Source of the DNA: Agelas oroides
Lineage: Eukaryota > Porifera > Demospongiae > Agelasida > Agelasidae
Direction of reading: 5' to 3'
Length of the DNA stretch: 64,000 nt
NCBI GenBank assembly: GCA_949130485.1
Contig: OX422189.1
Coordinates: 7,845,620-7,909,619 of the forward strand
In this document: positions 2,893 through 22,610 of the stretch, in pieces
How positions within the stretch are numbered: position 1 is the stretch's first letter
Layout: every line of letters begins with the position of its first letter
Position numbers and translations under genes: made by a program
The notes under the pieces: generated by a model
Seen by the model: the letters and a program-made list of their open reading frames with translations, nothing else
Databases searched by the model: none
What the model was told of the DNA's origin: nothing

Positions 2893-5635
2893 CTGTGTGA
2901 ATGATGCAGCAAAAACAATACTTTATCCAAAACATTAAATACTACCGTCCAAGACAATTACCCTCTTACTATAGCAACTATACATACTCAATTCAACAGT
3001 TGGTGATTTCTGCACTGGAGTTGCAACAACAGTTGGCCCTTCTGTATGGGGTGATGAGGCTGAGCTAGGCACATTCACACGATGCTGAGATCCTGCATCC
3101 AATCAAATGTAAGACACTAACAATAATAAAACTAGTGAGATAAACATACTGTACATATAACATCTTCAGCAAAAACGCCCTAGGATGTAGCCTAGAATAC
3201 ATGAGCCCATTCCCCTGTGAAAATTTACAACCTTCTGGATCAATTCAGTTATTCTACTTTATATAATTATTGTATACACTAACCAGGGTGGTGAACTATT
3301 ACAAAGAAGTCATTCTCATCTTCAGTTCCCAGCAACTTCACTTTGTATTCCAGTGGCTCTGGGGCTTTATCCTTTAGAAGCCATTTTAGCAAGAGTACAC
3401 ATTCAGGTACCCAAGTACTTTCTGATGAGAAATTATTGACACGATCTTTCTTGATCTAAGATTAAAGACACAAGAATCATTGCTAGATCCGAGAGCTGGA
3501 ATGATTCATAAACTTAGTAAAGCTACTTTTATACATGTGGACTCACGCAAGCCTTATGAAGTGGTTTGATTTCCCATCCACTGTCTATCTGTGTACCATC
3601 ATCAGGGATGTCAAGGGCTACATGGTCACCACCAAATGTAATGGGAGGAGCTATGTCATATTCCTGCTGATACTTCCTCTTCACCACCTGAAACACAAAT
3701 TATACTTCAAACAAAAGTACCGTAAAATCGGGACGGTACCTATTTTTGAAATTAGCAGCCCGAATGGGTGCTTGTTTTCATGGGGTGCTAATAAACGCAT
3801 GTGTAACAACTCAAGGTTTGCAAGAACAAAATCTATCTTGGTACAATGAAGTGCATGTATTTATAGTGATCTAGAAAAGTTTGTAATGAGCTAACCATAT
3901 CCTTTACACCAACACATTAGCCATAGAAGTGAATTTTTAGATCTATACAAAACTGAAGTATCAAAGTAAACAGTACAAGGTGCTACAACCAATACAAAAA
4001 CCATAAATGTAGTCAATGCTTAAATGTCAATGTGGGAACGGATTAGCTGTGTATATTTTAGGCCTAGAGGTTCTTTTTCGATTTCCAGTACGTTAGCATC
4101 CGTATGCTATACAGTGATTTATATGGTTAGGGTGTGGTTAGGGTTAGGTTAGGGCTGATATAAATACAGTATAGCATATGGATGCTAACGTACTGCCCAA
4201 TGTTTATAGCTTTTCTACAACCAGAGATACACGCAGTCAGCATTGCCAACCCCCGCCCACCAATGTAAAGCGCTTGGAACCAATGAATCCATGAAAGGTT
4301 TCTGCTACTTCCTGGATGTTTTATCAAGAGGCCTTGCCTAAATTTTGGTTTTTATCTCGTGTCGATAGCTTGCTTACAGTTGGAGATAGACACTTGCGAA
4401 AAGTAGCTGCTACATTCGAAAAAGCCGAATCAGCAAATTCACTTCCGTTTGCACGGTAACGGGTGCCTATTTTTGTATGGGTGCTTATAAACGTGATATG
4501 GTTGTTGTAATCGAAATGGGTGCCTATATTCATGGGGTGCTAATTTTGTGTGGGTGCTTATTATTTTACGGTAATACTGAGATACAATTTCTTTCCATAC
4601 TTACTGTGAGGCACATCTCCAGGTCTTTGGTAACCACAAAGTGGCAGTAGTATCAGTGGTCTTGCAGGTGTTTGATTGTGAAGTATACTTGAGCACAGTA
4701 CTGACAGGAGTGCTCACCAGGTGTCACTTTCTTTGCTATTCCATTCCCAGAAAAGTGAGCAGCAGAAAGCACTCCATGTTTACTGCCACAGGTGAAGGAC
4801 CCTCCATCAGCGATCTTAAACTTGTATGGAAGGGATTTTTGGGTGCAATTAGTGCGAACAAAGCATAGCTGACTGGGGTTGCTGAAGTTAGCACAATGCT
4901 GAGCTTCTATTCTGACTGGCTTCATAAATTTTCCAGGAGTAGCCACCCAGTACACAGCACTAACAAGCTCATAGCCTTCAGGAAGTTCAAACTGGCCTGA
5001 GAGCGAGGCTTTGATGTTGACACGATATTCAGGAGTACCTTCAGGAAGGGCATTCTCTGGAACATGCAGCTTAAACCCATAATCTTTCCAGTGAAAGTCC
5101 ATGGCTTCATTTGTGACTACTACCTCTTCTTCACCAACAACCTCAATCCCAAGTAAACTACTGTAACCTGCAAGAGTCATAAAAGAGAAACATTTATAAA
5201 AAAATTATCAGTAAGTACTCGACACTTGGATGAAAATCACTGGGTTATCTACATACTATAACCTGTCAGCTATTTGTGTGAGTGGAGACAGAGATTTGTT
5301 GCTGAGCCACTATAGATCATAGCAGCCAAGTGGCCTTCTAATAGCTGGTCTGGTAGTGCCAAATTTGTGCAAACTTTCATAATGAAATTTGATTGAATCC
5401 TGCAGTATGTGGTTGTCTGCAGTGACCGTCTGTACTTTGTAATCACTCAGTGCAGCATGTGTACTCACTAGCCTTTGACTTTTTCTGGTCTAGCTGTCTT
5501 TTAAGTTCCTCAATCTCAGCTTCCCGTATCTTTATTTGCTGCATGACACAACAGTATTTATAACCTTATGTTCAGTTGATATATATCAATGTTGTGCACT
5601 TACCACTTTCAGAGAAGTGTCGGTTTCACCAATGC
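2609..5635 (-). CDS. ZU5 / UPA-like / Death-domain protein gene (contains an in-frame stop)
   Basis: This is the minus-strand gene core, with exons agreeing in phase at 5635-5604, 5538-5469, 5167-4605, 3687-3547, 3455-3284, 3092-2988 and 2892-2609. In order they encode a linker, a coiled-coil-like segment (IREAEIEELKRQLDQKK), a ZU5 domain, a UPA-like region, a Ser/Thr/Pro-rich linker and a C-terminal Death domain ending at a stop at 2609. ZU5-UPA-Death is the cytoplasmic layout of UNC5 netrin receptors and of PIDD/ankyrin relatives. Animals such as sponges carry many cytosolic relatives, so a signalling adaptor is likely. The true 5' end was not found; candidate upstream exons lie at 6005-6288 and 11733-11813. 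A TGA at 4655-4653 interrupts the frame inside a conserved stretch, so the gene may be a recent pseudogene, a null allele or a sequence error. Confidence 0.75.
2988..3687 (-). CDS. Three exons: UPA-like region and Ser/Thr linker
   Basis: Exon 3687-3547 (47 codons, phase 0-0) encodes a start VVKRKYQQEYD and VALDIPDDG. Exon 3455-3284 (phase 0-1) encodes WVPECVLLLKWLLKD and YKVKLLGTEDENDFFV. Exon 3092-2988 (phase 1-1) encodes a low-complexity linker rich in Ser, Pro, Thr and Val. The first two have clear paralogues in the kinase gene at 42203-42057 and 37499-37313, with the same exon boundaries and phases. This supports them as real conserved exons. The region occupies the position of the UPA domain between ZU5 and Death; that name is positional inference. 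Confidence 0.7.
3718..4573. mobile_element. TIR element in an intron (TACCGTAAAAT ends)
   Basis: The ends TACCGTAAAAT and ATTTTACGGTA are inverted. Internal copies of GGGTGCTTATAAACG and GGGTGCTAAT-like words occur near both ends. No coding capacity was recognised, so it looks like a non-autonomous DNA transposon lying within the intron between the ZU5 exon and the exon at 3687. A second palindromic element is nested inside. Confidence 0.55.
4086..4195. mobile_element. Nested 110-bp palindromic element
   Basis: Arms of about 27 bp (CAGTACGTTAGCATCCGTAT.. and the inverted ..GCTAACGTACTG) flank a centre containing GGTTAGG repeats. It is inserted in the larger TACCGTAAAAT element. Confidence 0.55.
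4605..5167 (-). CDS. ZU5-domain exon with in-frame TGA
   Basis: The exon lies between the acceptor TTGCAG (5169/5168) and donor GTAAGT (4604). It encodes a ZU5 domain recognisable from WKDYGFKLHVPENALPEG, VSAVYWVATPGKFMKPV and SLPYKFKIADGG. Downstream is HSCQYCAQVYFTIKHLQDH, then TGA (4655-4653), then YYCHFVVTKDLEMCLT in the same frame up to the donor. The paralogous exon at 42425-42265 continues through this point without a stop (YCAQLYVNMKQMYDWRFYF). The post-stop sequence is clearly coding, and the next exon joins it in phase 0. Confidence 0.75.
5469..5635 (-). CDS. Two short exons: linker and coiled coil
   Basis: Exon 5635-5604 (32 nt) reads GIGETDTSLKV. Exon 5538-5469 (70 nt) reads QIKIREAEIEELKRQLDQKK plus SKA, a heptad-like charged helix. 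Both have consensus acceptors and donors, and phases that run into the ZU5 exon. They are the most 5' exons joined with reasonable certainty. Confidence 0.6.
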
Positions 5636-13338: not shown

Positions 13339-16300
13339 CTGTTTAGACAGAGAAAAGTATACAGTAAAACCAAGTAGTGTTGCTATTAGACCATACAAGG
13401 CAGCAGGAGTATTCAGTTATCTTTCTGATTTATAACATAACATAATTAGATTCGTTCATTTCCACAGAAATTTAGCCTCAGTAGCCATGGGTAGTGAAAT
13501 CACAAGTTGTGCTGGAAGTTATCATAAATTGAACCATAATGATCATGCATCCAATGTCATGATAAATGCACATCTTACTAGCAATGTTAAAAAAAACTGC
13601 TAAACATGTCTCAAACCCACTTTTATGTACTTGAACATTGGAAATTTAAACAGAAACCCCAAATCAGGGGCTGGTCTGGATGGGGGGGGGGGGGGGGGGG
13701 GGGGCGGGGGCGACAAGCACGAAGCGCAAGGCGCAGGCTTTGCTGTTAACATGCTCAGTTATAAACATGCTCCAGACCTGACAGTCAGATCTTAACCTGG
13801 TCAAAGTCATTGAGAGAGAAGGTGAGAAATAAAGACAAGAGATAAAGAGGGGGTAAAAAGACAGTGACTCAGGAGGGAGGGACTCAAACCCGTGACCTGG
13901 TAAATGGCCTGCCATGCTCTAACCAACTGAGCTACCGAATCACTCAGCAACTCAGTGGCTGAGTTCGAGTACTTAAGGCTGAGCTGCCAGGGATCCAGCC
14001 GAAGTGGATACCAAGCTGGCATGTTCAATGGGGGGGGGGGGGGGGGTTGCGATGAGCGCGAAGCAGTAGATATACCCTGAGCCGAAGGCAAGAGGTATAT
14101 CTACTGCAAACTTCCTCTGACCTCGGTCTCGGGTAGTATATTCACCTCCTTACTATGGTTTATATATTATATAGTTGCACATCTGACAGCTTTCAAGCAT
14201 ATTCACAACACCGTCCATATATGTTAGCTGAAAATCTCAAGATACAGATAATACTATTCGAATGCATGATAAAGAGTTCCTGTTCAAGTACTGTTCTACT
14301 GTTCTATGTTCTGAAAACGCAGTCTTCGTCCAAATCTGTAGTGTCAATTGCCACAAACAAGCTACTGACACTGGTTGTAAATTTTGGAGCATTCTACTTT
14401 TTTCCAATTGTTATTTGCTTTATGCTTCCTATTATATATACTGAAAAAATACCTTGGTTAAAGTAACCTCACAGAGTGGTTACTCCAGTTTCAGGGTTCA
14501 TTGAACCTGTCAGCATATACTATGAAGAGAATTTACACACTGTAGTAATCATCCACTTCACAATTCTGTCGAGCCTCATAAAAGCTAGCACAGACACTTG
14601 TCTGCTAGCTAATGCACGTGTAAGCCTGTACCGCTTGTTATGGTCCATCTGCTAGCTATTATCTGGTTCAATAACTATCCATCATCCTCTTCACAATTCC
14701 ATCTGGCTTTATTAAGAAACAGAGAGCTACCACAGACAAGTGTCTGTGGTAGCTTCCTAATGAAGCCTGGAGGAATTGTGAGGGGACAGTGGGCGGTGAT
14801 ATGTTGGTGAATTCTCTTAATAGTACTTACCAGTTCAGTCAAACTTGAAACTGGAGTTACCACTCAGAGTTTGTTTTAACTAAGTACTTTTTGTAGTGAT
14901 ATAGGTTAGCCTTTTTTTTGTGTGTGAGATCAGTTGCAATAGCCAGTTTGTGGCAGTTGTTGGCACCAACAGTTGGTGTCAATAGTCTTGGCCTTCCAAA
15001 TTTCCAAGTATACATTCCAAGTACATACACAGTGGTGAGTTGTGATCCCAGATTCAAACAATGACTCTGGTCGGCCAATGCTGTAAGTCAAAAAAAAATC
15101 ACTATACACAGATATTATAGCTAGCTACAGTGATGCTAAACCCCACAAGGGCAAATATTGGGAGGCTGAGCCCATTCAAGGGCACATTAGTGCTTCGAAG
15201 CCCCTCCCTCTCAATTCTTCAACTCCTGAAAGCACATGTATAGATATTACATAGCTATGTAGGTACTTACAAACAGTTGTTCAATCTTGGTGGCTTCATC
15301 AACAGCCTTAATGTCTTTGAAATATTCAACAAGATGCATCCACTTTCTTGGGCTTTTAGTACGATTGTTATTAAGCCATTCAATGAGGGCAGTTCTGGGC
15401 TTTGACTGTGCTGAACTTGTTTCTGTATCTTGTAGTGCTGGAGTCACCATTTCTCCAACAGAGGCAAGAATGTGGAAAATTGGAATTTCTGGTCTTGTTG
15501 TCTCAATGTGTGCAAGGGCTTCCAGAGTGAACTCATCATTCAGGGTACGACTCACTGGAATATAACAGACATAGATGTAAAAGCAATCTTCCCAAAATCG
15601 AATACATATGAACTGATGCTTTGTAACAAGATTAGATAGGGTAACTAAATGTTGGCTATAATAAGGTTGTTCTTGCTGTGATGACAGAAAACACTACATA
15701 GCCTTAAATAAACCCTGACCATTCTCCAGTAAGATTCATGGTGCACAGAGGGTTTCAGCTAAACCATGCCTTTAGTACATACATGCATGCAGATTCCCTA
15801 AGTACTGAGTTTCTGCTGGTTGTAATTGAAACTTGCATATTGATAATAGCCAAGAATGTGAAGTTGGAACTATAACCACCGTATCAAGCCTTGCAACACT
15901 TTTCCCTGCTTACTGAGTAAATATGTAGATCAGACTTCAATATCTTGCATCTCATGCAATGCCATGCATTTTCAATAATCAAGTTAGCACTATATTCTTG
16001 CATAGTAGATAACAGTTAAACTATAGCTAACCTTTGATTTTGGCTTTGAAGATACGTTTAGAAAACTTGCTGTCAAAGAACTCAAGATTTCCCCCAAAGA
16101 AGAGTAATTTTTTGTATGAACCGACGATCACAGAGCAGGTAGAATCACATGGAACAGGAAAACTGTTGACAAGCACCCATGAACGTGAATGCTCATCGTA
16201 CATCCGAATCTCACGTGTTGGGCCTCCAGCTTGAACTATTCCTCCAACAGCTAGGAGTCGACCTTCCAACACAGCCAGGCTGGAGCATCGTGCAGACATG

Positions 16301-19300
16301 GTAGGGAGCTTCCTCCAAACATCCCCAAACAGAATCAGAATGATCTGTACTTGCAGATAAAATAAGGGACTCCAACGATGCACGGAAAACATCTCGATTC
16401 TGCCATCTTCCACCACCAAGGTACCATGTATCTTTATAAAGAGTGGTCTTCAGAAAATAGGCAGCATGTGGAAGAGGTTTTGCAGATGTCCATTCACCTG
16501 ACCTCACATTATATACTTGAACAAAGTCAAGGGGACTTGTTGGATGATTCTTCACTCCCCCTGCTACAATGAGATGCTCTCCTCTGTTCACAGCAGAAGC
16601 ACCCCAGCATGGGGTATTCATTGGTTCAATGGGTTGAATCCAGTCAGAATCATCATCATCATCAACACCATCCTGAAGAAACCAGAGTTGGTTTGTTGCT
16701 TGTCCACTAGGTAAGTGTCCACCAATGAGCACCAGTTTTCCAGAAAAAGTAGCAAGTGCTGACCAACGTGTAGACGCTGGTGTTTTCAGTGTTTTCGTCT
16801 CTGCTTCTGTTTTGTGGTTGAAGACAAAAATTTTGGTCTCATTTTCAGGATTCGTTGTTATGCCTCCACCAATGTATACTTTATCACCAAGTACTGCTGC
16901 TTGTGCATGCTGTATTCTGTCGGGAAGGACAGTCTCCACTTTTCGCCATTCCAGTGAGACAAGAGGGTTACATAAATCAATCTGCAAAGTTGAAATGCCA
17001 TGAATTTGTCATATTATTTACACCCAGCTATAGCTACCAGAAACAAGAAAATCGGCTCTTGCAGAAATTGATAATATGATATGTATATCTTGCAAAGGAG
17101 ACTTGAAGGAGTACATAGATAATCAGGTTGAGTGCAATAAATCTTCGAATAGGCGTCGCCCTCAAATAGTCACCGCCCTCGAGTAGTAGCCGGGAGCTCT
17201 GGGTGAAATAACGCCTCCCTCGCGACTAGTAGCCGCGACTAGCACATGTGTAAGAATAATTGCCGACGACAGTCACCAAGCTAGTGCTAGGGCTGTTCGT
17301 GTTCTACGACTCATTTCCAGAGCTGGGAGTAGGACTGAGAGGCTGCGCGTACCACAGTCATTGCATTGTGGTTAGCTGCAGACCAGTGGCGTAGCCAAGC
17401 CCCGGCACACCCGGGCACGTGCCGTACCCTATAGCATTCGCTTGTCGTAGTTTTAAATTAGCTCCACGCGCGAAAGAGTCAGCACGCGATCGAAAGAGGC
17501 GTGGATCGGAAGGTCTGGCCAGCCTATATGTATATATATGTTGTGGATGCATTTGCTCAGAAGGAAAATGTATGCATTTGCTCACTGCAGTCTGTGTAAT
17601 AGTTTACTTTGCATTTTCCTCATCTCACAATACATTAAGCACTAGCAAGAGCTTTCTTCAGAGCTGAATAGCAACGAGAGCGCTTCCTGAAAACTGGAGA
17701 TGTGTATTATTTTCGCTACACTTACTTGGCGTGAAAACCCAGCAGATGCGATCTCGGAGGTCCTAAATTCTCCTGGGGGGGGGGGCATGCCCCCAGACCC
17801 CCCTAAAAGAGCATGCTTCCACATGCTAACTTTCTGCACATTGCACAGCACCGTGTATGTTGCCCTACCTGTGCCCGAGCAACTACCCTATTCTGGCTAC
17901 GCCACTGCTACAGACTCGGAAATCGAGTAAATAAAGGAATTTAGATGTTATGAGGCGAAAATAGAGAAAAGTGAAAAGGCCAGCAGCCACCGGAAGTCGA
18001 ACCCAGGACACCTCCGGCTTGAGCCGCCAGTGCTCTGCCACTGAGCTACGGCAACCGGACAACCACCAACCCCCACAATCCTCTATGTGTACTGCACAGG
18101 TGGTACTAAATGCCTCAGTCGCACACCCAGCAGCCACTCAGTATGTGTGGGGGTTGGTGGGTGTCCGGTTGCCTTAACTCAGTGCATGGCAGAGCACTGG
18201 CGGCTCAAGCCGGAGATATCCTGGGTTCGACTCCTGGTGGCTGCCAGCCTTTTCACTTTCCTCTATTTTCACCTCATAACATCTAAATTCCTTTATTTCC
18301 AGCATGAGGCAAGATGGTCTGAGCATTTAGAATGAGAAAACCACTCAGCATAGGTTCTTTCCTGATGGAGGGAATTTTCCGGTTGACCCCTAACAGAGAT
18401 CTGACGGCACATACTGAGTGGCTGCCGGGTGTGTGACTGAGGCATTCAGTACCACCTGTGCAGCACATATAGGGTTAGTGGTTGTCCGGTTGGCGTAGCT
18501 CAGTGGCAGAGCACTGGCAGCTCAAGCCGGAGGTGTCCTGGGTTCGACTCCCAGTGGCTGCCGGCCTTTTCACTTTCCTCTATTTTCGCCACATAACATT
18601 TAAATTCCTTTATTTCCAGCATGAGGAAAGATGCTCTGAGCGTTCGGAAATCGAGTGTTCGCCCAGCTGGGCAAAGGCAGCGTACCCATAAGCTTATAGC
18701 ACGAAGCTGTATCACCTGTACGTACCTTATTCAGCTGTAGTTGATATCTGTGGCATTTCCAAAGAAATAAACGCCACTCTCGAATAGTAGCAACATAAAA
18801 ACAAGCAGCGACAAAAATAGAAGCGGCATCTGATCAAAGAAATACAGTACACAACAAAATTTGTGCAATTGCCTACTGATAATGTGCTGAACTCAATAGT
18901 GGTATATACGGGGACATATTTGCAACAGCACATATAAACTGCCTGTCAAATAGTGCATGGTTTGGTTGTCAAAATAAACTAGAGCTAGCTAATCACCGGG
19001 CATCACAAAACATCACTCTACAGCCCCTAAGTTGTTATGGTTGTACACACTACTCTTTCCTTATTTTTAAGGCTACAAGTAAAATACCTGGGTTTAAGCC
19101 AGTGACGATAAATGTTAGGATCTAGGCCTTAGAATTACCTCATACACAGTTTGATTACAAGAGCACCAAGCTTCCAGGAAAATGTATGCATTTGCAATTC
19201 AACTTGGCTCACCTCATGCTCATGTGACTGATCGTGAGTTGTAGCTCTATCACTCTCCTGTAGTCTATCTGCGATACAAAAGTTCAAACATATTCCAATG

Positions 19301-22300
19301 TAATGCTAATAACATTCACCCAGCAACATATTTCAGTTGCCCCAAAGGAAACCAATTTGTTACAGGCCATTATTGCTAAACCCCTTAGCAAATGTCTTGC
19401 TGTGTATAGGTTGAGATTTCGACATAATGATGATAGTTTGTCAGCATAAGACATTCAGGTAGACTATGATGGCAAATAATCAAATGTGTGGATCATGAAC
19501 ATTTGGCTACCATCTTTACTCAAATACAAATGTAGATCCAAGATAAGAGATCTATTCAATTCTTGGAATCTCAATTGGGCAGAAGCCTGCTGCATTTTAT
19601 GTGAACCCAATTTAGCACATAGATTACTTGTTCAAAACAAATTGAAAAAGTCACTTGGAGAAAGAGGCGGTGTAGTGTACCAGGAAATTTTTTTGTTGTT
19701 GTTGTTGCTAGAATGTTTTTGAAATGCACAGCAAGCTTTAAGGTATTTCAGGTAGTATTATGTAGCAGTACGAAACCAGACAAGAATGAATGTATAGCAC
19801 AAGTGAATAAGAACTAATTCTGTAAAATATATAATGTTCTAAAATGATTTTAAAAAGAATCACTATCAACATTACAAGTGAGAATGTTATTCTCTAACCT
19901 ACTAGCAAAGGACAAATTTAGTCCTAGCATTGTGACATCATACTTGGAGTATAGGTAACTGTATGTTGGGGGTTACTCTATACTGTAAAATGTCTAGGGG
20001 TAGTCAACTTACCAATTTATAGACTTGCAGAGGCATGTATTGCCTTCTTGTCACAGATGATAAGAAAATAAAACAAGCAATTTTCTAGCTCTGAAACAGG
20101 TTTTATGTTCAATGTACTCAAACCTGTTATTGCTTGTCATGCCCAAGAAAGAGCTCATTCCAGCTATGAACCATGCATTCATTGTTAGGTTGGCATAATG
20201 TTTTGCAGAGATTTGTTGTATTTAGTCTTGACTTCAAGATGATTGCTCCCATGCAGACCAAGTAGGCTCCAAGATTAACATCCTTCTGCTGCAGCATACA
20301 GATCAAGAAGAGGAGGCCCAAGAATGGATCCCTGGGAGACTCCAGATGACACAGATTTATAGCTGGATGTACGATCATCTAAACTAGAACTGGCTGTAAT
20401 CTGGCACATAAGTAGACTTTGAGCGATCATGCATAGTAGGCCTGCATGCGTGAAAGTCAAGATCGTTGAGAAGTGCTTGGTGAGGAATGCTGTCAACTTT
20501 TCGTGGAAAATATGCTTCATTATGCAACGAGAAGCAATTTTTATTTTCTGTGTAAATTTGAAGTTTTATAGATCATTACTGCTTCCCAAGATGCAAGACA
20601 AAGAATTCACATAAATGCTATAAGTTATTAGAAGCAATAGAGTTCTAACCTAAATACAAATTATTTAGTGCCAATCCATTATTATGATGTGCTAACAAGC
20701 TTGGAAAAGAGATGGTAGACAACACTAGACCATCTCTCATTTCATTCAGTAGCTATATACATACCAATGGAAGTAAGTTTTCTTAGTAAATTGTCGCAGA
20801 CAATACATATGTTCATAGCAGCAGGTACAAAATGGGCAGAGCGTGTAATGTTCCTTCGTTATGTAAAGTAAGGTAAACAGTTCTAGAAATATGGGGAAAT
20901 GATGTTATGTGATATCAATGCTCAAGTTTAAGGTTGAAAGAGAGTAAGCAATTCAGTACATAAATATTTAGGTAAGAAGCATTCAAATGTTGATTTTGGG
21001 TGCAGCTATCACTTGTACACACATTGTCAATTGACTTTGTGTGGTGGGAAAACATCAAAACAAGGGGAGATGATAGTATTGACTTGGATCGGATAAGAAA
21101 AAGGGGGGTGACTGTGTTGGCATGGAGAAAGCAAAAGGGGTTGACGACAGCTGATAGGGGTAACCATACCCCAAGTAGTCGCGATACTCCATCACAATAC
21201 AAAATCTTTCACTCTCTGTAGCAGCTGCATTCACGTGGCGCCAGCAATAACTATAACCAATAATGAGATTCATCTGAACAGCTTTCGAGTTTGCGCTTTT
21301 AGGTTTTGGCCAGGGTCTACGCAAATAGCTGTACTAAGTATACACGAAGGCAGCCCTTCAAAAAGGGGGTTCCATGAAACCCACGGAACCCCATCTAGAT
21401 CTGCCACTGGCTGACACAGGAAGTGATGCCATGAATAGACTCACAAACCTATAAAAAAAGGTTGGTAAGGCACATAGTGCATGGTTTCCTTCTCCCCTAC
21501 CTTTTTGGCAATACTTGTCTCTCAGCTGTTGAGCCAGGTGCCCTTCTCCCACCGGAGGACTCTCAAGAGCTTCAATGAGAATGTTCCAGGTAGGAGGGGG
21601 ACTAGTGCGCTCCAACCAGACAGTTAGCAGTTTTAACAGACATTCAGGCATTGAGGGGTTTTCCATTCGAATGCAGTTGAGAGACTCAGTGGGAATTTGT
21701 AATTGTACTCCAAGATTATGCCACTTGGAACTGATTGAATACAACTCAAAGCGCAGTATACACCTGTCTCCTTGGCCTAAAGTGGGGGACAGATGATGGA
21801 ATGGGAAAACATGGGTGTGTACATGTAGAGGATATCACCATCCAGCTACAAGCAAGGCAGCAATAGGTATTCATCCTGTCCAATCAATACAACATATCAG
21901 TGTTACATTTCAATGTCACTAGTGGGATATAACTCACTGAGAGGCCCAGGGTTCATCTCTATGTCTCCTCTCAGCAAGAGCAGTAGAATCCCCACCATCA
22001 CTACTGTAACTGCCCTCTTTAGACCAGAGGAAACACTGAGACCCGCGCTGAGTAAAACATGGTGGACAGGATAGGTGCGCCCAATACTAATATTCATCCT
22101 TACTACTCTGCTTTGGAGGACCATTGCTGGTAGCACATTGTTGAGAAATGTCAGGGCCAGAGGGGAATGGCTAAAGGTCATCTGACGTGGATAACCATGC
22201 CACTGTTTGATAGGTTTTGAGTGGTCTGTAGTTAGTATTTTTAAAATACACACCAGCACAAGGAGGGGATGGCGAGGGGTGACATGACCTGTTCGGCAGT

Positions 22301-22415
22301 GCTGGTACATGTAGTGCCACCGCCTTTGGCATGTATTCATTATGTTGACCTGAAATTTCAGGTGCTCAGTACTGACTGGCAATCTAGCAGAAGAGAGTAG
22401 ATTGGGAAGAGCCAA
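13087..22415 (-). CDS. 2A-like leader - Death - Kelch gene (one +1 frameshift)
   Basis: Minus-strand exons agree in phase: leader exon ending at 21938 (ORF opens at 22415), Death exon 21776-21501, linker 19268-19213, Kelch exon 16981-16032, helical exon 15554-15271 and acidic tail 13338-13087. The phases are 1, 1, 0, 1, 0. The Kelch exon is 950 nt where 949 would keep the frame, because of one extra base in a four-base homopolymer (16323-16326). The predicted product would have a hydrophobic 2A-like segment that could release or redirect the leader, then a Death domain for homotypic assembly and a Kelch propeller for substrate binding. The fusion is inferred from splice phases, not from a transcript. 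The acidic tail and helical exon are the least certain members. Confidence 0.6.
13670..14100 (-). repeat. tRNA-like SINE remnant with poly-G tracts
   Basis: About 13870-13945, on the minus strand, contains GGTAGCTCAGTTGGTTAGAG (A box) and GGTTTGAGTCC (B box), as in tRNA-derived SINEs. Poly-G runs of 24 and 16 bases flank it at 13681 and 14031. The acceptor stem does not pair, so it is not called as a tRNA gene. Confidence 0.5.
14472..14873. mobile_element. Imperfect fold-back element, ~400 bp
   Basis: The left arm (CAGAGTGGTTACTCCAGTTT, AAGAGAATT) is the inverse of the right arm (AATTCTCTT, AACTGGAGTTACCACTC). A second perfect hairpin, GCTACCACAGACA with its complement and a 2-base loop, lies at about 14725-14752. 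Non-coding, in the last intron of the Kelch gene. Confidence 0.6.
15271..15554 (-). CDS. Helical domain exon downstream of the Kelch repeats
   Basis: Acceptor TTCCAG at 15556/15555, donor TTT|GTAAGT at 15271/15270; 284 nt, phase 1 in, phase 0 out. It encodes about 95 residues (SRTLNDEFTLEALAHIETT, RTALIEWLNNNRTKSPRKW, MHLVEYFKDIKAVDEA). The pattern is predicted to be all helical and its second half resembles a Death-fold segment, but I cannot name the family. It joins the Kelch exon donor in phase. Confidence 0.55.
16032..16981 (-). CDS. Kelch-repeat exon with single-base frameshift
   Basis: Acceptor CTTTGCAG, donor AAAG|GTTAGC. It encodes about five to six Kelch blades, seen as repeated hydrophobic-GG motifs: VLGDKVYIGGG, FSGKLVLIGGH, RGEHLIVAGG, KDTWYLGGG, LEGRLLAVGG and YKKLLFFGG. 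Kelch propellers bind partner proteins. Near 16323 the frame shifts +1: upstream ...TDHSDSVWG, downstream VWRKLPTMSARCSSLAVLEG. Dropping one base of the run CCCC (plus strand, 16323-16326) joins both halves and makes the exon phase fit its neighbours. This could be a sequencing error or a real disabling indel. Confidence 0.8.
17384..17907. mobile_element. hAT-type MITE, 524 bp, 8-bp target duplication
   Basis: The ends CAGTGGCGTAGCCA and GGCTACGCCACTG are inverted. The flanks CTGCAGAC (17376-17383) and CTACAGAC (17908-17915) match at 7 of 8 bases, the 8-bp duplication expected of hAT elements. The interior has GGGGGCATGCCCCCAGACCC, also present in the element at 57397-57916. It lies in the intron upstream of the Kelch exon. 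Confidence 0.75.
17930..18148 (-). repeat. tRNA-derived SINE, copy 2
   Basis: The minus strand has GCCGTAGCTCAGTGGCAGAG (A box) and GGTTCGACTTCC (B box). A conserved upstream module contains CCACCTGTGCAGTACACATA and the tail CCTCATAACATCTAAATTCC. It is head to head with copy 3. Confidence 0.7.
18148..18308 (+). repeat. tRNA-derived SINE, copy 3 (5' shortened)
   Basis: It starts abruptly near GTGTGGGGGTTGG and includes the A-box region with a small insertion (AACTCAGTGCATGGCAGAG) and GGTTCGACTCC. It continues to CTTTATTTCCAGCATGAG. Confidence 0.65.
18405..18625 (+). repeat. tRNA-derived SINE, copy 4 (full length)
   Basis: It runs from CACATACTGAGTGGCTGCC through GGCGTAGCTCAGTGGCAGAG and GGTTCGACTCCC to CTTTATTTCCAGCATGAGG. 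The intact A and B boxes are spaced as in tRNA genes, and the tRNA-like part sits internally, preceded by a ~75-bp family-specific module. Confidence 0.7.
19213..19268 (-). CDS. 56-nt linker exon between Death and Kelch
   Basis: Acceptor ATCGCAG, donor GAG|GTGAGC. In phase 1 in, phase 0 out it reads RLQESDRATTHDQSHEHE, a hydrophilic linker. The phases match the Death exon donor (21501) and the Kelch acceptor (16981), the main reason to include it. Confidence 0.5.
20275..20520 (-). pseudogene. Non-LTR retrotransposon reverse-transcriptase fragment
   Basis: The reading includes VSSGVSQGSILGPPLLDLY, matching the conserved SGVPQGSxLGPLLF block of non-LTR reverse transcriptases, with some changes. 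It is a short fragment; adjacent frames (20127-20378) may be a frameshifted continuation. It lies in the intron between Death and linker exons and has no promoter or endonuclease part. Confidence 0.55.
21501..21776 (-). CDS. Death-domain exon
   Basis: Acceptor CTTTAG (21778/21777), donor AAAAAG|GTAGGG. It encodes about 91 residues with the Death pattern KWHNLGVQLQIPTESLNCIR, LLKLLTVWLER, PTWNILIEALES and VGEGHLAQQLRDKY. It enters in phase 1 to complete a Ser codon from the 2A-like exon. Death domain recognition is confident; the partner is unknown. Confidence 0.8.
21938..22415 (-). CDS. Leader exon ending in a 2A-like peptide motif
   Basis: The open frame extends from 22415 to a strong donor CTCA|GTGAGT at 21938/21937. 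Its C-terminal end is VVMVGILLLLLRGDIEMNPGP followed by L. GDIEMNPGP fits the 2A consensus D(V/I)ExNPGP, at which ribosomes skip a peptide bond. The preceding hydrophobic run resembles a signal peptide. An ATG at about 22092 (MNISIGRTYP...) would give a ~52-residue leader, a more natural start than the upstream ATG. 2A-like leaders of this hydrophobic type are known from some marine-invertebrate NLR proteins and from non-LTR retrotransposons. Splicing to the Death exon is in frame. Confidence 0.6.
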
Positions 22416-22610
22416 TAAAATTCATGCAAAATAAATGCAGCACACAAACATGTATACATTTGTACAATTGCAATGGCTACAGTCAGTGCAAGACACGATG
22501 CTGCCTTTTTCTACCGGCAAAGAAGATGTTACCTGCCAAGTACGTACCTATATGTAAGCACTAACAAGAAGTTTAGTGTACTCTAGTATCATGTCTTGTG
22601 TGCCTCCAGC

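Follow-up and report, generated by a model that had tools for sequence, protein, structure and literature searches.

A leader exon ending in a 2A-like motif can join in phase to a Death domain in a sponge gene family

The window analysed here is a stretch of 64,000 nucleotides (nt) from the sponge Agelas oroides (GCA_949130485.1, contig OX422189.1, positions 7,845,620 to 7,909,619). On its minus strand, we found an exon encoding a hydrophobic leader that ends in the 2A-like motif DIEMNPGP and can join in phase to an exon encoding a Death domain. This 2A exon and its in-phase splice sites towards the Death exon are real, and the exon belongs to a large family of Death-domain genes with 2A leaders, part of which is arranged in tandem. 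Within this family, the leaders are associated with Death domains and the 2A motif is under constraint. We consider it fairly probable that the locus represents a host Death-domain gene with a skipping 2A leader, which would give rise to two protein pools.

Results

The 2A exon and its junction with the Death exon

The minus-strand open reading frame (ORF) 22421..21903 holds VGILLLLLRGDIEMNPGP, followed by CTC A and by the phase-1 donor GTGAGT from 21937. Read from this ORF, the predicted start Met of the leader is at 22340, and a stop in the same frame lies above 22421. The exon 21776..21501 opens after the acceptor ...CCCCCACTTTAG, whose last base is 21777 (AG at 21778-21777), and the phase 1 to phase 1 join of the two exons reads NPGP-LSQGDRC. 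A Pfam scan identified the Death domain as PF00531 (E 3.7e-7, 30.6 bits against a cut-off of 22.6), and the leader gave no Pfam match in the scan of the window.

The initial annotation, made from the letters of the window, had claimed that the 2A exon ends at a GTGAGT donor and that the next acceptor gives an in-frame, phase 1-1 Death domain. The sequence and coordinates of the exon end hold, and the Death domain scores above its cut-off in a joined frame that is open. The junction 21501|19268, also proposed there, is a phase-1 GT-AG junction with an open frame in silico. Together with a second GT-AG junction, 19213|16981 (phase 0), it keeps the frame open into Kelch repeats (Pfam E 1.6e-13), and the resulting four-exon model is one open frame of leader, 2A, Death, linker and Kelch. 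No NACHT or LRR domain was found in the five stretches of the window scanned with Pfam; Kelch is there instead.

Families of 2A leaders across the genome

We searched the genome (259 Mb, 141 contigs) with the degenerate pattern D(V/I/M)ExNPGP and obtained 285 matches, compared with 0 for a reversed-pattern control. Using the leader protein of the window as the query, we identified at least 65 places with a leader of the same kind (type 1), none of which contains a stop. Since the matches outnumber the control and the leader recurs in so many copies, the 2A of the window exceeds chance. Truncating the query before the 2A again gave 65 rows, 63 of them at type-1 leaders already found; of the other two, one lies beside the 2A at C1:612779 and one is a 30-aa fragment. 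A second leader family (type 2), found with a query from locus L051, gave 86 rows, which merged into 82 places. A neighbour of the same type was present within 60 kb for 38 of the 65 type-1 leaders and for 69 of the 86 type-2 rows, the latter including pieces of single leaders.

Positions are listed for the first 100 of the 285 2A sites, comprising 19 of type 1, 53 of type 2 and 28 others. Among the Death matches listed, a Death domain lies less than 10 kb downstream of 54 of these 100 sites and upstream of 4. Seven of the 28 other sites have a Death domain within 1.5 kb, and 21 have none among the listed matches up to 150 kb downstream on the same strand.

Leaders are followed by Death domains in phase

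The co-location of leaders with Death domains was assessed with the best 150 of 812 Death candidates. A Death domain was found less than 10 kb downstream on the same strand of 54/65 type-1 leaders (1 upstream, 0 antisense), a count that rose to 59/65 when the Death matches of the long loci were added. For type 2, at least 37/82 leaders showed the same arrangement (1 upstream, 0 antisense).

Twenty long loci (18 paralogues, the duplicate of the window gene and the window itself) were then compared. All 20 carry a same-strand Death domain 0.1-7.7 kb downstream, with a best E per locus of about 3e-27 or lower. In each of the 20, a GT donor follows the NPGP codons at a distance of 4 nt, and Death is immediately preceded by an AG in phase 1. 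Across 30 aligned leaders, the GT donor 4 nt past NPGP was present in 28; the remaining two were L021, with GC, and L027, which is intronless.

Leader and Death are encoded in one open frame, in the same phase and with equal frame length, at seven loci (5/65 of type 1 and 2/82 of type 2; Table 1). The Death domain of one of them, L052, falls below the Pfam cut-off (E 0.011), yet is matched by the family Death query (E 1.4e-11). Alignments with five public proteins (P0006, P0007, P0009, P0010 and P0027) cover 86-97% of the L052 ORF, and P0006, the one of the five that was scanned, passes the Pfam Death cut-off. Thus, the in-phase splice put forward in the initial annotation is possible in 20/20 long loci, and natural open frames run through the 2A into Death. 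Leader identity also correlated with Death identity over 19 loci (duplicate L032 dropped), with r 0.47 and 0 of 2000 permutations as high.

The 2A motif is the most constrained part of the leader

Pooled ratios of nonsynonymous to synonymous variation (pN/pS) were calculated from 30 copies, for which the search query had contained the 2A. The octapeptide reached 0.089, compared with 0.576 for the leader body and 0.544 for the hydrophobic run, making the 2A motif seen in the initial annotation the most constrained part of the leader. The octapeptide D(V/I)ExNPGP was exact in 28 of the 30 copies, the exceptions being L023 (DLETNPGP) and L024 (DIKTNPGP).

Public relatives gave a similar picture. 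D(V/I/L)ExNPGP was present in 120/120 type-1 relatives (the best 120 of 713), found with a query that contained the motif, and in 114/120 (the best 120 of 662) when the query lacked the 2A. The 6 relatives without the motif were cut short, shifted, or carried NPGL. The residues past NPGP in the public relatives are mostly xGE or xGK, which is a translated GTGAG or GTAAG donor. Because some public entries are 100% identical to leaders of the analysed genome, the source species is probably in the public database. The 713 and 662 public clusters, compared with 65 copies here, suggest that further genomes contribute; other leader types may be included.

With positions numbered backwards from the final Pro of the motif, residue -13 is Leu in 30/30 copies, in 120/120 type-1 relatives and in 89/89 proteins from the type-2 search. 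Position -14 is Leu in 30/30, 119/120 (one Met) and 89/89. Position -16 varies, and both -12 and -16 differ between the leader types. The 89 proteins are the motif carriers among 120 listed public proteins of the type-2 search; the other 31 comprise 4 leaders with an altered or missing motif, the rest being leaderless Death pieces. In the sea-urchin 2A of SpNLR2A6, changes at R11, L13 and L14 substantially reduce recoding, and several changes at L16 have little or no effect, according to a part of PMC4981915. At the residue level, the leader 2A thus appears to match a requirement tested in sea urchin, namely Leu at -13 and -14.

Hydrophobic segments of the leader

Hydropathy analysis revealed at least two hydrophobic segments in 30/30 leaders, in support of the hydrophobic leader described in the initial annotation. 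AlphaFold predicted helices at residues 25-39, with a predicted local distance difference test (pLDDT) score of about 60, and at 108-124 (about 85 at residues 111-120). The second predicted helix ends at the 2A.

Domains downstream of Death, and the Kelch repeats of the window

To describe the downstream domains, 20 selected long ORFs from 17 long loci were scanned with Pfam. Of the 17 loci, 12 showed NACHT and/or LRR domains, with NACHT present in 7 of them; 2 had ankyrin arrays, 1 had Death alone and 2 had nothing. One of the two empty loci, L050, has an ankyrin-like ORF outside the Pfam scan. Some downstream domains may belong to neighbouring genes; at L034, for example, a Roc-COR ORF (3144-5609) lies right behind the 2A-Death-NACHT-LRR locus.

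The Kelch repeats of the window change frame near 16330; the in-frame version meets a stop soon after, and the rest lies in another frame. We found a near-identical copy of this part of the window 100 kb away, with 99% identity in the leader and 95-98% in the Kelch pieces. In this copy, an insertion of 829 nt interrupts Kelch, and its edges overlap by 18 bp. The layout is the same in both copies, and in neither is Kelch demonstrably intact. The copies show 0 differences over 19212-19268, and exon versus intron divergence is uninformative because they are too alike.

Kelch was also considered as a regular partner of 2A leaders. We compared 143 of 144 listed Kelch rows (144 scored of 378 candidates) with the listed type-1 and type-2 leaders; the omitted row is a further piece, the third, of Kelch in the duplicate. 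Among these rows, Kelch lies less than 20 kb downstream of a leader on the same strand only in the window and its duplicate, and the partnership was rejected. The "2A-Death-Kelch" family suggested by the initial annotation is therefore not supported: the layout is confined to these two copies among the rows checked, and the window Kelch frame is broken.

Other features of the window and the genome

Two tRNA-Glu-like (CTC) genes, at 17981-18056 and 18488-18563, lie in opposite orientation in predicted intron 3 and are possibly tRNA-derived short interspersed elements (SINEs). Behind the Kelch exon, the ORF 15247-15693 has no Pfam match. A second Death-like domain was considered in this ORF and rejected, since profile comparison gave a probability of 1.4% and the weak resemblance is unsupported.

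Elsewhere in the genome, a dense array of type-2 leaders occupies C1:4.06-5.10 Mb, often spaced by 10-30 kb and with Death downstream of many. At C1:26515955-26516334, a 2A outside both leader types is followed 76 nt later by Death in a 1249-aa open frame; by coordinates the two are in different frames, and joining them needs a short intron. At C2:25.55-25.68 Mb, 13 Death matches of the same subfamily are clustered, with no type-1 or type-2 leader listed nearby.

Table 1. Coordinates of the window gene model on the minus strand, and genome positions of loci with leader and Death in a single frame
Feature	Position	Strand	Remarks
2A leader exon	21938..22340	-	133-aa leader from Met (22340), ends ...LLLLLRGDIEMNPGP, then CTC A
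2A octapeptide DIEMNPGP codons	21942..21965	-	
Hydrophobic stretch adjoining the 2A on its N-terminal side (LKRAVTVVMVGILLLLLRG)	21966..22022	-	
Predicted intron 1	21777..21937	-	GT-AG, phase 1
Death-domain exon (PF00531)	21501..21776	-	donor GTAGGG
Predicted 56-nt linker exon	19213..19268	-	phase 1 in, phase 0 out
Kelch-repeat exon, in frame	16211..16981	-	reading frame shifts near 16330
Further Kelch repeats, different frame	16027..16330, start approximate	-	
RT-like (reverse transcriptase-like) fragment (SGVSQGSILGP)	20275..20565	-	within intron 2, outside the gene
Type-1 single-frame leader-Death loci	C1:4188, C1:3199357 (L011), C2:25918558 (L027), C2:25969109, C11:2376499		
Type-2 single-frame leader-Death loci	C1:4736383 (L052), C1:7320363		

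Discussion

Proposed role of the leader and its alternatives

We propose that the exon encodes the N-terminal leader of a Death-domain protein of the host, from an immune-type family whose members carry NACHT-LRR, ankyrin or, here, Kelch. In this reading, the second of the leader's two hydrophobic segments runs straight into the StopGo/2A motif. Ribosomes would often skip the Gly-Pro bond at this motif, which would release a membrane-type leader peptide ending in NPG and leave a cytosolic Death protein that begins with Pro. Where no skipping takes place, the leader would stay attached and direct the Death protein into the secretory membrane system. Such dual localisation would follow the sea-urchin experiments in the part of PMC4981915 that describes them, by analogy, and an immune role is suggested by the domains of the family.

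Among the alternatives, it is extremely improbable that a non-long terminal repeat (non-LTR) retrotransposon left the 2A ORF behind as a remnant. Odon et al. 2013 are said to have described 2A in the ORFs of such elements. Parts of PMC4981915 and PMC11512398 likewise place 2A in non-LTR elements. An RT-like fragment lies 1.6 kb downstream of the window 2A, and 21 of the 100 listed 2A sites have neither a type-1 or type-2 leader nor a listed Death domain within 150 kb. These 21 sites may be retroelement 2As; they are scattered over C1 and C2 (e.g. C1:10533858 and C2:6189509), and some share identical 23-mers. Against this origin, a scan of the 20 long loci with one regular expression found the RT motif only in the window and its duplicate, as an intronic fragment, and not in the other 18. 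The fragment itself has no Pfam match at E 0.1 and, because it occurs only in these two copies, looks like an insertion in the window lineage older than the duplication. Type-1 leaders are stop-free with Death behind them on the same strand, and the splice phase is kept across the long loci. The initial annotation had raised an independent retrotransposon ORF as the outcome that would overturn it; the RT-motif scan and the co-location show Death, not RT, after the leaders, and a retrotransposon origin of the 2A exon was rejected.

Two further alternatives keep the host gene and differ in what the leader does. A plain signal anchor or signal peptide that places the Death protein in membranes, its 2A being inactive, would be consistent with the hydrophobic segments in all 30 leaders, and skipping here is a prediction from sequence. 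However, a signal sequence has no need of NPGP, the octapeptide is the most constrained part of the leader, and both leader types retain Leu -13/-14 but differ from each other at -12 and -16; we regard this alternative as quite unlikely. Conversely, skipping could be essentially complete, so that one mRNA would yield a working 133-aa membrane protein and a cytosolic Death protein. The leader body does form a family with shared motifs, and its pN/pS of 0.576 goes beyond the need of a plain signal peptide. However, it evolves fast, is mostly of low confidence in the model and has no Pfam match, which makes complete skipping unlikely too.

Several observations weigh against the host gene with a skipping leader that we propose. 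The leader is 133 aa long, compared with 26 aa in sea urchin as given in a part of PMC4981915, and the sea-urchin R11 is not kept, the leaders having mostly Met, Leu or Ile there. Outside its second helix the leader model is poor, with a mean pLDDT of 53. AGs in other phases occur near the chosen acceptor in 10/20 long loci, and stops occur in 5/86 type-2 rows. No Death domain was found within 10 kb of 6/65 type-1 leaders, nor of 45/82 type-2 leaders among the best 150 of 812 Death candidates. Finally, the frame break in the window Kelch and the insertion in that of the duplicate indicate that the window copy may be decaying. The window gene may itself be a pseudogene in decay, in a family that otherwise works; this is a serious possibility, which we nevertheless rate below an even chance: the leader, 2A, Death and four-exon model are open with GT-AG sites up to 16330, and the divergence between window and duplicate is too low to separate exons from introns.

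The host Death-domain gene with a skipping 2A leader remains our preferred reading. More speculatively, and in our judgement rather doubtfully, sponges might have a genome-wide 2A-gated system of about 100 or more Death-domain receptors, in which skipping efficiency would set the cytosolic versus membrane share and the released two-helix leader would be functional. Taken together with sea urchins, such a system would mean that 2A leaders on Death-type immune receptors are as old as animals, or that they arose repeatedly.

Significance and comparison with known systems

The genome holds 285 2A sites, many of them in leader exons that are under constraint and precede Death domains. It makes it possible to test directly how ribosome skipping in cellular genes arose and what it is for, and it supplies dozens of natural 2A variants. 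It also suggests that an animal may direct one immune-type protein to two compartments from a single mRNA. The cellular use of 2A is called rare in a part of PMC12846837, and NLRs are named as cellular sequences with 2A in a part of PMC11512398. Among the literature matches listed, none reported 2A in sponge genes; Rao et al. 2025 (Cell Rep.) and Odon et al. 2013 lie outside that scope.

The leader shares its octapeptide with the 2A of non-LTR retrotransposons and differs in that Death, not RT, follows. It also resembles the sponge NLRD class of Dysidea avara, which in a part of PMC12909245 comprises expanded Death-NACHT-LRR families, and such layouts occur among the loci here. However, the window gene has Kelch in place of NACHT or LRR, and the main text of PMC12909245 contains none of the terms '2A-like', 'ribosom', 'skipping', 'signal peptide', 'kelch' or 'leader'.

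The closest likeness is to sea-urchin SpNLR2A (Roulston et al. 2016, PMC4981915), where, in the part of the paper considered, Death-type immune receptors carry a hydrophobic N-terminal leader ending in D(V/I)ExNPGP and Leu -13/-14 is common to both systems. In contrast to SpNLR2A, the leader here has two hydrophobic segments, an exon of its own and a phase-1 intron before Death (in the 20 long loci). Leaders here also stand upstream of ankyrin and Kelch and occur in many tandem copies. Judged by sequence, the family appears to be a variant of the sea-urchin 2A signal-sequence system.

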